Made by a program: the position numbers and the translations under genes. DNA of 64,000 bases from Paucibacter sp. B2R-40. Its GTDB lineage: Bacteria > Pseudomonadota > Gammaproteobacteria > Burkholderiales > Burkholderiaceae_C. The stretch covers positions 310,001 through 374,000 of the forward strand of contig NZ_JAJIRP010000005.1 of assembly GCF_025717555.1 (NCBI RefSeq). Reading direction: 5' to 3'. Below the pieces are notes generated by a model that had not been told where the DNA came from, did no database searches, and saw nothing but the letters and a program-made list of their open reading frames with translations. Shown here in pieces: positions 25,191 through 46,028 of this stretch; positions within the stretch are counted from its first letter, which is position 1; each line of letters starts with the position of its first letter.

Positions 25191-25277
25191 TGGTGCCCAG
25201 GACGGGACTTGAACCCGTACGACGATTAAGTCGGCGGATTTTAAGTCCGCTGCGTCTACCAATTCCACCACCCGGGC
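25191..25277 (-). tRNA. tRNA-Leu (UAA anticodon)
   Basis: 87 nt including encoded CCA. Acceptor GCCCGGG pairs with CCTGGGC (with one mismatch or wobble), a long variable arm is present as in class II tRNAs, the anticodon loop is centred on TAA, and the T loop GGGTTCAAGTCCC is standard. Last tRNA of the minus-strand cluster. Confidence 0.95.
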
Positions 25278-25337
25278 GGCACATCATCGCGAGAGCATTA
25301 TCTATCGCTCGCAGCGCCAACTCATCAGCGCACAAAC

Positions 25338-25365
25338 AAGAAAGGGAAGCCGATCGGCTTCCCTT
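25338..25365 (-). terminator. Hairpin after the third tRNA-Gly
   Basis: AAGGGAAGCC (25342-25351), loop GATC, GGCTTCCCTT (25356-25365), with a T-rich tract on the minus strand. It lies 9 nt downstream of a tRNA-Gly. A closely similar hairpin follows the first tRNA-Gly at 26057-26086. Confidence 0.65.
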
Positions 25366-25374
25366 CTATAAATT

Positions 25375-25450
25375 TGGAGCGGGAAAAGAGGCTCGAACTC
25401 TCGACCTCGACCTTGGCAAGGTCGCGCTCTACCAACTGAGCTATTCCCGC
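25375..25450 (-). tRNA. tRNA-Gly (GCC anticodon), third in cluster
   Basis: 76 nt with encoded CCA: acceptor GCGGGAA/TTCCCGC, D arm TAGCTCAGTTGGTAGAGC, anticodon GCC, T loop GAGTTCGAGCCTC. The mature sequence is identical by eye to the other two tRNA-Gly genes here. Confidence 0.97.
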
Positions 25451-25507
25451 ATCGCTTTGGCATTGAATATTCATTCAAACCAAGCTTGGCAAAGGTAACT
25501 GACATAT

Positions 25508-25583
25508 TGGAGCGGGAAAAGAGGCTCGAACTCTCGACCTCGACCTTGGCAAGGTCGCGCTCTACCAACTGAGCTATTCCCGC
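25508..25583 (-). tRNA. tRNA-Gly (GCC anticodon), second in cluster
   Basis: 76 nt, the same sequence as its neighbours at 25375-25450 and 26092-26167. It is separated from the third copy by 57 nt without the hairpin that follows the other two copies. Confidence 0.97.
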
Positions 25584-25946
25584 ATATGTCTTTCAATACC
25601 AACGATCTGCTTTCAATGGATTCTACAAACTTCTACAGCATCCAAGCAAACCATCAATATTTGCTTCAACGACCATAATCCCTGTTACCAAGAACCAGAC
25701 GCATCCGCATACCTTTTCTTCGCCGCTTTAACCTTTGCAGGTTAAATCAACTGATCGCTTCTTAGCCGGTGCCACCCGGCGTTACGATCTGCCTTTCAGC
25801 GAAGAGCGCTATTCTATACTGAAATTATTCTCACATGCAAGATGTTTCGAATATTTTTCACTACATCAAAGAACGCATATTCAACAAACCAGCCCCAAAC
25901 GATCTAATCGTGCCAGTGTTCACCGGCCAAATCAAACCAACTAAGC
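25584..25946 (-). other. AT-rich gene-less spacer inside the tRNA cluster
   Basis: 363 bp between tRNA-Cys and the second tRNA-Gly, clearly richer in A+T than the neighbouring genes. No convincing ORF. It contains a promoter-like element (25813-25840) and a short dyad TTTAACC-TGCAA-AGGTTAAA read on the minus strand (25727-25746). It could be a long leader or an unannotated small RNA; nothing else is recognisable. Confidence 0.5.
25813..25840 (-). promoter_or_regulatory. Putative promoter of the distal tRNA-Gly/Gly/Leu genes
   Basis: On the minus strand TTGCAT (25835-25840), a 16-nt spacer and TATAGA (25813-25818). The same layout, with the same TATAGAAT extended -10, occurs upstream of the first tRNA-Gly (26251-26278). 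It lies about 230 nt before the next tRNA gene. Confidence 0.45.
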
Positions 25947-26020
25947 TGGAGGCGCGACCCAGAGTCGAACTGGGCTAACCGGATTTGCAATCCGGGGCAT
26001 AACCGATTTGCTATCGCGCC
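25947..26020 (-). tRNA. tRNA-Cys (GCA anticodon)
   Basis: 74 nt with encoded CCA: acceptor GGCGCGA/TCGCGCC, anticodon stem CGGAT/ATCCG around GCA, T loop CAGTTCGACTCTG. Located between two tRNA-Gly genes on the same strand. Confidence 0.96.
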
Positions 26021-26056
26021 GTATTCCGCCCGCCAACGCCCAAATCGCAGCATTGA

Positions 26057-26086
26057 CGGAAAAGGGAAGCCCGGGGGCTTCCCTTT
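26057..26086 (-). terminator. Hairpin after the first tRNA-Gly
   Basis: AAAGGGAAGCCC (26061-26072) faces GGGCTTCCCTTT (26075-26086), followed on the minus strand by TTCC. The stem sequence is shared with the hairpin at 25342-25365, which suggests that hairpin and tRNA-Gly were duplicated together. Confidence 0.6.
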
Positions 26087-26091
26087 CAATT

Positions 26092-26167
26092 TGGAGCGGG
26101 AAAAGAGGCTCGAACTCTCGACCTCGACCTTGGCAAGGTCGCGCTCTACCAACTGAGCTATTCCCGC
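26092..26167 (-). tRNA. tRNA-Gly (GCC anticodon), first in cluster
   Basis: 76 nt, identical by eye to the two other copies. First gene of the minus-strand tRNA cluster, about 80 nt downstream of a putative promoter. Confidence 0.97.
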
Positions 26168-43469: not shown

Positions 43470-45011
43470 TCAACCCTGTGCTGCCACCCGCTCGATCTTG
43501 CTGTGCAATTTATTCAAGGCACTCAAGTAAGCCTTGGCCGAGGCCACAACGATATCGGGGTCTGCCCCAACGCCGTTGACGACGCGCCCGCCAAATTGCA
43601 GCCGCACCGTCACCTCGCCCTGCGATTCTGTGCTGCCGCTGGTGATGGCATTGACCGAATAGAGCAACATCTCGGCGCCACTTTGCGCGGCCAACTCGAT
43701 GGCTCTTAGAACTGCATCGACGGGACCGTTGCCATCGCTCTCCATCCGGTGCTCGACCGCACCGGCCGCGAACACCACGCTGGCATGCGGCCGCTCACCC
43801 ATCTCCGAGTGCTGCGCCAAGGCGATCAGGCGGTAATGCTCATTCTCGGCAGTGACAGATTCGTCCATCACCAAGGCGATGATGTCCTCGTCAAAGATCT
43901 CGTTCTTGCGATCGGCCAAATCCTTGAAACGCACAAAGGCTGCGTTCACTTCGGCTTCGGACTCAAGCGCAATGCCCAACTCCTGCAGCCGCTGCTTGAA
44001 GGCGTTACGTCCACTGAGTTTGCCCAGCACGATTTTGTTGGCGCTCCAGCCCACATCTTCGGCGCGCATGATCTCGTAGGTGTCGCGCGCCTTGAGCACG
44101 CCGTCCTGATGAATGCCCGAGGCATGGGCAAACGCATTGGCGCCGACCACCGCCTTGTTCGGCTGCACCACAAAACCGGTGGTCTGCGAGACCAAGCGGG
44201 AGGCCGACAGAATCTGCGTCGCATCGATGTTGACGTCAAGCCCGAAGTAATCGCGCCGCGTCTTGACCGCCATCACCACTTCTTCCAGCGAGCAATTGCC
44301 GGCCCGCTCGCCCAGGCCATTGATCGTGCACTCGATCTGGCGCGCGCCGCCGATTTGCACGCCGGCCAGCGAGTTGGCGACCGCCATGCCCAGGTCGTTA
44401 TGGCAATGCACGGACCAGATCGCCTGATCTGAATTTGGCACGCGCTCACGCAAGGTCTTGATGAAGTTGCCGTACAACTCGGGGATCGCATAGCCGACCG
44501 TGTCGGGGATATTGATGGTGCGAGCCCCCTCCTTGATCACCGCCTCGACCACGCGGGCCAAAAAGTCCGGGTCGGAGCGGTAGCCGTCTTCGGGCGAGAA
44601 CTCGATGTCGCCGCTCAAGTTACGCGCAAAGCGGACGGCTTGAATCGCTTGCTCCAACACCTGCTCGCGCGTCATGCGCAGTTTTTTCTCCATATGCAAC
44701 TCGCTGGTGGCAATGAAGGTGTGAATGCGCGAGCGCGCCGCGCCCTTGAGCGCCTCGGCGGCACGGGCGATGTCGCGGTCATTGGCACGTGCCAGCGAAC
44801 AAATCGTGCTTTCGCGCACCGCATCGGCAATCGCCTTGACCGCCTCGAAGTCACCGTTGCTGGAGGCCGCAAAACCGGCCTCGATCACATCCACTCGCAG
44901 GCGCTCCAACTGGCGCGCAATGCGCAGCTTTTCGTCCTTGGTCATCGAGGCGCCGGGGCTTTGCTCGCCGTCACGCAAGGTGGTGTCAAAGATGATCAAT
45001 TGGTCGGCCAC
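43470..45011 (-). CDS. leuA: 2-isopropylmalate synthase LeuA
   Basis: First committed step of leucine synthesis: acetyl-CoA plus 2-oxoisovalerate. 513 residues: catalytic barrel with [19 protein letters not shown] and the metal HCHNDLGMA motif, plus the C-terminal leucine-binding regulatory domain (about 390-513). The start is GTG with GGAG 7 nt upstream, chosen because the family N-terminus begins there. A leucine attenuator precedes it (45036-45156). It follows pssA on the same strand. Confidence 0.97.
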
Positions 45012-45035
45012 GGTGAACTCCAGAAGAAAAGGATT

Positions 45036-45070
45036 GAAAAAAAGCCCGCGAAGCGTTTGCTTGGCGGGCT
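45036..45070 (-). terminator. Attenuator terminator upstream of leuA
   Basis: On the minus strand AGCCCGC and AAGC pair with GCTT and GCGGGCT (45043-45070) with one mismatch, followed by seven T. It lies between the leader peptide stop and the leuA start, 25 bp from the GTG. A terminator here can only serve to control leuA itself. Confidence 0.88.
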
Positions 45071-45095
45071 GTGATGCAGAAAGCTATTGACGTGA

Positions 45096-45141
45096 GCGAT
45101 CAGCGAACCCGGAAGGTTCCTAGTAGTAGCAGGCTGATCGC
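45096..45141 (-). promoter_or_regulatory. Leader-peptide hairpin of the leuA attenuator
   Basis: GCGATCAGC (leader codons 6-8, 45133-45141) pairs perfectly with GCTGATCGC at the leader stop (45096-45104). The four Leu codons lie just after the 5' arm, so a ribosome waiting for Leu-tRNA would cover that arm. CGGGTT (45106-45111) inside the loop can pair with AGCCCG of the terminator stem as an antiterminator (one G-U pair). This is inference from pairing. Confidence 0.72.
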
Positions 45142-45156
45142 GGTCGCAAAGTTCAT
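45100..45156 (-). CDS. leuL: leuA leader peptide (leucine-rich, 18 residues)
   Basis: A short reading frame upstream of leuA encodes MNFATAISLLLLGTFRVR. Codons 9-12 are CTG CTA CTA CTA, all leucine. CTA is a rarely used leucine codon in GC-rich genomes of this kind. A TATATT -10-like box lies just upstream (about 45164-45169) and the frame ends 30 bp before the terminator. It matches the classic ribosome-mediated attenuation layout. Too short for standard gene finders. Function is inferred from codon content and structure. Confidence 0.82.
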   Translation of the reverse strand: MNFATAISLLLLGTFRVR

Positions 45157-45179
45157 AAGGTTCAATATAGCACGCCAAT

Positions 45180-46028
45180 TCAGCGGTGCAGGCCCTGTTC
45201 ATCGGGATCATGGGTCGAGGTCGCGATCATGCTGACCGGCCGGCCCTTGGCCTTGCGCCAAAAGTAAATCACATAACCCGACAGACCATAGGCGCAGAAG
45301 ATCGCAAACAGGCCCAGCGGCGGGTTCTGGCTGATCAGCACAATGGCCAGGGCGATCGCGACCAGCACCACAAAAGGCACGGTGCGGCGAGCGCCGACGA
45401 CCTTGAAGCTGTAGAACGGCGCATTGGTCACCATCGACAGGCCGGCAAACAAGGTCATGCCAAAGGCGGTCCACACCACCCAAGGCAAATTCGTCACCCG
45501 TTGAAATCCGTAATCATCAAAGGCCCAGATCATGCCGATCACAATGGCCGCGGCCGCCGGACTGGGCAGCCCCTGGAAAAAGCGCTTGTCGACCACGCCG
45601 ATATTGACGTTGAAACGCGCCAGCCGCAGCGCCGCCCCGGCGATATAAACAAAGCTTGGAATCCAGCCCAGCTTGCCCATGTCCTTGAAGGCCCAGATAT
45701 AGACGATCAGCGCCGGCGCGGCGCCAAAGCTGACCATGTCCGAGAGGCTGTCCATCTGCTCGCCGAAAGCACTTTGCGCATTCGTCATGCGTGCCACGCG
45801 GCCGTCCAAGCTGTCGAGCACGGCGGAGCAGAAGATCGCAATGCACGCGACTTCGAAGCGGCCATTCATCGCCATCACGATGGCATAAAAGCCCGAGAAC
45901 AGCGCTGCCAGCGTGATGGCATTAGGCAAGACATAAATGCCCTTGCGGCGCGGGCGCGGTACGTCGTGCGCACCCTCGTCATCATCGTCGGACATATCGG
46001 CCTGGGTCTTTTTCTTGAGATCGGTCAT
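45180..46028 (-). CDS. pssA: CDP-diacylglycerol-serine O-phosphatidyltransferase
   Basis: Makes phosphatidylserine for phosphatidylethanolamine. 282 residues, integral membrane, type II PssA. The CDP-alcohol phosphotransferase motif is complete: DGRVAR, then G, D and D in FGEQMDSLSDMVSFG. About seven to eight membrane segments. An acidic N-terminal stretch (MSDDDDEGAHD) precedes the first. Lies between ilvC and leuA, a placement usual in betaproteobacteria. Confidence 0.95.
   Translation of the reverse strand: MTDLKKKTQADMSDDDDEGAHDVPRPRRKGIYVLPNAITLAALFSGFYAIVMAMNGRFEVACIAIFCSAVLDSLDGRVARMTNAQSAFGEQMDSLSDMVSFGAAPALIVYIWAFKDMGKLGWIPSFVYIAGAALRLARFNVNIGVVDKRFFQGLPSPAAAAIVIGMIWAFDDYGFQRVTNLPWVVWTAFGMTLFAGLSMVTNAPFYSFKVVGARRTVPFVVLVAIALAIVLISQNPPLGLFAIFCAYGLSGYVIYFWRKAKGRPVSMIATSTHDPDEQGLHR

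Follow-up and report, generated by a model that had tools for sequence, protein, structure and literature searches.

What is the function of the short interval between pssA and leuA in a Roseateles-like betaproteobacterium? The window analysed here is a 64,000-nt stretch of the 5.6-Mb genome of this organism, whose closest named relative among those listed is a Roseateles MAG with a 99% identical LeuA. In it, leuA (2-isopropylmalate synthase; 43470–45011, minus strand, GTG start; NCBIfam NF002087.0, E = 6.2e-267) follows pssA (45180–46028, minus strand; NCBIfam TIGR00473), with ilvB, ilvN and ilvC (identities likewise from NCBIfam) further upstream. The initial annotation described a leucine attenuator in the intervening DNA and gave no strand; all the parts that it named were located on the minus strand, and the leader region gives a single match in its own genome. 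Judged from its sequence, the ORF before leuA is very probably a switch that responds to the supply of leucine, and we consider likely the more specific reading that it belongs to a leucine-responsive transcription attenuator of leuA, the regulated gene, whose leader peptide would be translated from a leaderless transcript.

Read 5' to 3' on the minus strand, the interval runs from TGC-TATATT through 7 nt to ATG AAC TTT GCG ACC GCG ATC AGC CTG CTA CTA CTA GGA ACC TTC CGG GTT CGC TGA, after which come 29 nt, the hairpin AGCCCGCC-AAGC-AAAC-GCTT-CGCGGGC, a T7 tract, 25 bp and the leuA GTG. The predicted 18-residue leader, MNFATAISLLLLGTFRVR*, is present (45100–45156 including the stop codon, minus strand, ATG at 45156), and codons 9–12 (45121–45132, minus strand) are indeed four consecutive leucine codons, CTG CTA CTA CTA, three of them CTA. 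The repeated codons of this short ORF thus specify the very amino acid that the downstream gene helps to make. CTA accounts for 3 of the 151 leucine codons in the ilvB, ilvN, ilvC, pssA and leuA genes of the window and for 284 of 573 in the 129 family leaders that have terminators; in the enterobacterial leu leader the control codons are likewise known to be rare. Among relatives the peptide varies, apart from the leucine run and the codons involved in RNA pairing. By eye, no comparable leader was seen before ilvB in the window.

The 131-nt stretch containing these elements folds with −43.7 kcal/mol (z = −4.27), a value equalled by none of 200 shuffles. Region 1, GCGATCAGC (codons 6–8; 45133–45141, minus strand), forms the 5' arm of a protector hairpin and is perfectly complementary to the 3' arm GCTGATCGC (45096–45104, minus strand) across the stop codon, in agreement with the annotated pairing of codons 6–8 with the stop region. 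Between the ORF and leuA lies the expected intrinsic terminator, a hairpin AGCCCGCCAAGCAAACGCTTCGCGGGC (45044–45070, minus strand) of −17.1 kcal/mol when folded alone, followed by a T7 tract (45037–45043, minus strand), with 25 bp between its end and the leuA GTG at 45011; the Shine–Dalgarno sequence of leuA, CTGGAG, is at 45018–45023 (minus strand). Simple scans of the window listed neither this terminator nor a σ70 promoter nor a good −35 element at the leader, and an internal mismatch in the stem is probably why the terminator was missed.

A possible antiterminator had also been suggested. The candidate arm is region 2, CGGGTT (codons 16–17; 45106–45111, minus strand), which is complementary to AGCCCG in the 5' arm of the terminator. 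To follow the moving ribosome, the window RNA downstream of the ribosome edge, taken as 11 nt past the A-site codon, was folded with the 3' arm of the terminator not yet made. With any of codons 8–11 in the A-site, CGGGTT pairs with AGCCCG (−13.9 kcal/mol). Codon 12 gives a different and weaker pairing (−10.7 versus −13.9 kcal/mol) that still touches the 5' arm of the terminator; at codon 13 this arm is unpaired upstream, and with the ribosome at the stop codon weak local pairs only are formed (−4.1). In the full-length window RNA the terminator is preferred at all ribosome positions tested, with pair probabilities of 0.98–1.0 in the core of its 5' arm. Since the terminator wins once its 3' arm exists, the antiterminator could act only kinetically.

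Whether these parts form a unit can be judged from relatives, with the family defined by the grouping of the genome search tool. The upstream regions compared were those of 80 named loci, 94 family genomes (the best 94 of 148 with a matching leuA; one was ended by a contig end, leaving 93 usable) and 58 loci of a wider sampling. Excluded were 37 of 248 loci in which a second leuA gene ran off the stretch, with 15 replaced by longer ones (one of these, L127, is itself cut), together with loci lacking any candidate (L029 and L203) and duplicates, giving 145 family regions and 56 outside regions. A strict leader was required to begin with ATG (or with GTG plus a strong −10), to have 12–45 codons, at least three leucines if it starts with ATG, an LL pair and a −10-like hexamer 5–10 nt before the start; near cases were picked by eye among those failing the strict definition. 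Within the usable family genomes among the best 94 of 148, a leader ORF was found in 89 of 93 (81 strict, eight near) and none in the other four. The 59 named loci with a usable stretch comprise 52 strict, two near and four with neither (one of them cut short), the remaining one being L029, whose 141-nt stretch holds no candidate. After dereplication, a leucine-rich ORF with a −10-like hexamer is present in 128 of 145 family regions. Candidates were ranked on features of the strict definition itself, which is why the shuffled control matters: the same caller accepted 5 of 1450 dinucleotide shuffles.

These counts bear on the simplest alternative, in which the hairpin, lying as it does directly after pssA, is the terminator of the pssA operon only and the ORF is a chance frame. 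We regard this explanation, already disfavoured, as scarcely credible: a leucine-rich ORF in 89 of 93 genomes (best 94 of 148) set against 5 of 1450 shuffles argues against a chance frame, as do the enrichment of CTA and a GGG codon that is fixed in all 60 leaders of one peptide class (the HGR type, described below). The absence of leucine codons from homologous leaders, which had been named as grounds for abandoning the attenuator, was likewise not what the 89 of 93 usable genomes (best 94 of 148) showed.

That attenuation by leucine is the best reading follows also from the position of the element, which remains ahead of the first leu gene. Where a second leuA-type gene separates pssA from leuA, as it does in 35 genomes, the leader precedes this extra gene in 35 of 35 (30 strict and five near, among the best 94 of 148). 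This second gene is the longer of the two and lies between leader and leuA in 35 of the 93 usable family genomes (loci L112–L185; best 94 of 148), an arrangement in which two isopropylmalate-synthase-like genes would share one attenuator.

The initial annotation proposed a covariation analysis of homologous leaders; its outcome divides the structure in two, with a terminator that covaries and an antiterminator that does not. A terminator was recognized in 129 of 137 family leaders and not in the other eight. Leaders were aligned by the end of the peptide into A1 (44 rows, the class of the window) and A2 (43 rows, the HGR class). A1 holds 44 of the 46 kept leaders of its class, L159 having been left out and L047 moved to A2 (42 + 1 = 43), and 22 of the 129 leaders belong to neither class. 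Terminator cells are paired in 96.5% (A1) and 97.4% (A2) of cases, and two-sided changes occur at three pairs in each alignment, involving three cells in A1 and 24 in A2. For A1, 8 of 500 shuffles reach the number of two-sided cells and 7 of 500 the covariation score; for A2, none of 500 reaches either, while 25 of 500 reach the number of pairs and 381 of 500 the number of pair types. Antiterminator cells are paired in 84.5% (A1) and 99.6% (A2; ACGGGC/GCCCGT), with no two-sided change in A1 or A2, so that covariation neither supports nor opposes this helix. With RNAalifold, the terminator was the sole prediction for a mixed family set and for the PRVR/PRAR class; the region 2 stretches of these two yielded no structure, whereas that of the HGR class yielded the antiterminator.

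Region 2 nevertheless looks conserved as RNA. In the HGR-type leaders the glycine codon is GGG in 60 of 60, within a block NAC GGG C in which the first residue is H, N, D or Y; since these leaders were chosen by residue pattern, the selection itself accounts in part for the middle A of NAC, though not for GGG. With the ribosome placed at the leucine run, the 5' arm of the terminator is sequestered with a probability above 0.5 in 127 of 129 family leaders, and with the ribosome at the stop codon this is also the case in 37 of 129 (0.81 in the nearest relative, L002). Values above 0.9 are reached by 116 of 129 real segments versus 62% of shuffled ones, a score that hardly separates the two and is therefore not used as proof. 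The gain from antiterminator pairing is −8.2 versus −5.7 kcal/mol for shuffles, and it is matched by at most one of 20 shuffles in only 42 of the 129 leaders. When the arms of each of 128 leaders were paired with those of other leaders, each of the three helices paired better within its own leader (0 of 2000 permutations in every case); the antiterminator gains little from it (−12.15 versus −11.59 kcal/mol), a difference for which common descent can account. The antiterminator is thus predicted by folding in the window and kept in relatives but does not covary, and both it and any response to leucine stay at the level of inference.

Two points go beyond the initial annotation: the distribution of the element over the family, and a leader that looks leaderless. 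An extended −10 element, TGC-TATATT, lies at 45164–45172 (minus strand), at a position conserved in the family and with 7 nt between its last base and the ATG, a distance that would place +1 on the AUG, and the ORF has no Shine–Dalgarno sequence. Across 128 family leaders the spacer between hexamer and ATG is 6 nt in 51, 7 in 61, 8 in 10 and 9–10 in six, and TG precedes the hexamer in 127. Because the selection required a −10 at 5–10 nt and favoured TG, the informative part is the sharp peak together with the bases that were not selected. Among these, C occurs at −1 in 80% of family leaders and in 76% of 30 leaders from outside the family, which also show TTG around −36 to −34; the window leader has T, not C, at −1. 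The mean Shine–Dalgarno energy is −1.5 for the leader versus −6.2 for leuA, and a value of −4 or better is reached at one of 128 leaders and, after shuffling, by 15 of 128 leader upstream sequences, as against 57 of 64 starts of leuA. The transcript is accordingly predicted to begin at the leader ATG or within 1–2 nt of it.

Transcription might instead enter by readthrough from the ilvC–pssA side or start further upstream, in which case the attenuator would not be leaderless and the leader would be reached by reinitiation after the pssA stop. Readthrough from ilvBNC–pssA is plausible, and in the window 23 nt separate the end of the pssA stop codon from the leader ATG. In the printed segments of relatives, however, the ATG lies anywhere from 30 to 108 nt from the estimated end of pssA, while the −10 spacer holds at 6–8 nt in 122 of 128, and the frequent C at −1 outside the family also speaks against such an origin, which we consider unlikely.

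A start joined to an apparently leaderless ORF does not seem confined to leucine. The 5.6-Mb genome has two matches to the pattern TGNTAYATTN{5,8}ATG (a reversed-pattern control has one): at the leuA leader and at a phenylalanine-rich leader of the same leaderless layout, MPFQKFYSFFWFSNRTGGREANA (L260:1516–1587; G000:C50, about 200180; outside the window), which is followed by a terminator and a gene that appears DAHP-synthase-like from a reading of its protein. Since the gene ahead of this leader is another one and the layout is nonetheless unchanged, reinitiation after pssA is further disfavoured. An additional own-genome pattern requiring poly-T close behind the ATG gave no match, its gap being too short even for the leuA terminator. 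The Phe leader is present in strict form in 27 of 30 family loci and in none of 1500 mononucleotide shuffles. For trpE, 23 of 25 fetched loci were examined (L320–L342, outside the window, with L338 from the own genome; L343 and L344 are partial), and a GAW-x-WR Trp leader was found in 21 of them. As raw counts, 18 of these 21 have a TACACT-type −10 scoring at least 5 at 6–10 nt before the ATG and no Shine–Dalgarno sequence (mean energy 0.17). The layout thus appears common to three amino-acid leaders, Leu, Phe and Trp.

Outside the family, 30 of the 56 dereplicated loci satisfy the strict definition. One of those counted, L242, is false, being a piece of pssA by reading. In the 39 outside loci read by eye, 29 of them strict and 10 hand-picked and partly doubtful, the leucine run is often near the end of the peptide and mostly uses CTG (149 of 271 leucine codons; CTA 22), and in several the run takes the form CTGCC-stop-GGCAG. 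No intrinsic terminator was recognized upstream of leuA for 27 of the 30 strict leaders (L196–L248), nor was there any obvious T-tract or intrinsic terminator in the roughly 80 nt printed behind the Trp leaders. These outside leaders look as if they have a different read-out, possibly Rho-dependent or translational. Both observations favour the wider view that the conserved promoter and ORF are there for control by Rho or at the level of translation, with the intrinsic terminator secondary, but the terminator present in 129 of 137 leaders of the window's own family, and covarying there, makes such control very unlikely as the main mechanism at this locus. For the family as a whole we lean towards a scheme in which the leaderless start, an extended −10 joined to the AUG, is standard for the Leu, Phe and Trp attenuators, with sensing through leaderless initiation, and in which the leuA version is old, occurring in other families without the intrinsic terminator.

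Leucine attenuation at the window locus is supported by the cognate gene, the run of rare CTA codons, the covarying terminator and the leucine-rich leaders of 89 of 93 genomes (best 94 of 148), leading us to propose the following sequence of events. RNA polymerase would start at the extended −10 behind pssA, giving an mRNA whose 5' end, to judge from sequence conservation, is at or 1–2 nt from the leader AUG, and a ribosome would load on this 5' AUG without a Shine–Dalgarno sequence. With charged tRNA-Leu plentiful, it is predicted to reach the stop codon and cover region 2, allowing the terminator to form. When leucine is short, it would stall at the CUG/CUA run, and region 2, CGGGUU, would pair with AGCCCG in the 5' arm of the terminator; transcription would then go on into leuA. 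If the leader is not translated, codons 6–8 should pair with the stop region, so that the terminator forms by default. If terminated, a transcript with the AUG at its 5' end would make a small leaderless mRNA comparable to rnTrpL as described in PMC7298713, and the released transcript or peptide might also act in trans in the manner of rnTrpL/peTrpL of Sinorhizobium meliloti. We give this extension little probability, as the peptide varies in relatives beyond the leucine run and the RNA-pairing codons.

Both leader-peptide attenuation and leaderless leaders are known elsewhere, and the element is of a known kind. The leu attenuator of Escherichia coli has the same protector and antiterminator logic as proposed here, and its leuL has a 5' UTR. 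Like the window, E. coli has a run of four leucine codons with CTA (CTA CTA CTA CTA in leuL; Rfam RF00512) and a terminator hairpin with a T-tract before leuA; leuL has 28 codons and an upstream GGAG, whereas the window leader has 18 codons and no Shine–Dalgarno sequence. In Streptomyces lividans, leaderless leader peptides are reported before leuA, leuS, trpE and others, including LeuL1 (leuA) and LeuL2 (leuS), which are leaderless transcripts encoding peptides of 12–15 residues with a leucine run; these differ in belonging to Actinobacteria and, in the sections of the article that treat it, LeuL1 is without a typical intrinsic terminator (PMC8079986). An actinobacterial LEU element at leuA is described, in the relevant part of PMC1262725, as a proposed pseudoknot in which the run of leucine codons pairs with the leuA Shine–Dalgarno sequence. 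The trpL/rnTrpL attenuator RNA of S. meliloti likewise starts with the ATG of its leader ORF, but concerns tryptophan in an alphaproteobacterium and has reported functions in trans (excerpts of PMC7298713). Leader peptides of Corynebacterium glutamicum, from another phylum, are described for leuA, trpE and aroF, with four consecutive leucine codons before leuA (excerpts of PMC4046766 and PMC3890552) and, comparable to the Phe leader above, a Phe-Tyr-Phe leader before aroF (DAHP synthase; PMC4046766, in the same portion). Campylobacter jejuni LeuL is given in part of PMC3847290 as a 28-residue leader with rare leucine codons before leuABCD.

No Rfam family matches the leuA leader at gathering score, and the RF00512 (Leu_leader) covariance model gave no match in the window or in 15 relatives, with 145.8 bits for the E. 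coli control. A hit to RF02424 (a Burkholderia sRNA) on the opposite strand of the window, at 19.9 bits against a gathering score of 70, was treated as chance; a search of 60 genomes of the order returned eight RF02424 matches in seven genomes, none above the cut-off, and in one of the seven, G184, leuA is on another contig. The main text of PMC3521395 mentions neither Cand287 nor leuA, and that of PMC2965389 neither leucine nor leuA. In the literature searched, which covered few subscription journals, no description was found either of the leuA leader element or of its leaderless form across this betaproteobacterial family.

The analysis adds the leaderless layout, found with Leu, Phe and Trp leaders alike, along with a concrete candidate leucine switch for Roseateles-type and related bacteria in an ORF that routine gene calling would pass over for its size. 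Should the leaderless start prove real, attenuation in this lineage would depend on leaderless initiation; conditions favouring leaderless translation could then shift leucine, phenylalanine and tryptophan synthesis together, and the link between initiation mode and attenuation would be directly testable in betaproteobacteria.

The same 64-kb window contains tRNA-Leu genes with the anticodons TAG and TAA. The latter belongs to a tRNA cluster at 25191–26167 in the order Leu(TAA), Gly, Gly, Cys, Gly, the three tRNA-Gly(GCC) genes of which have equal Rfam scores.
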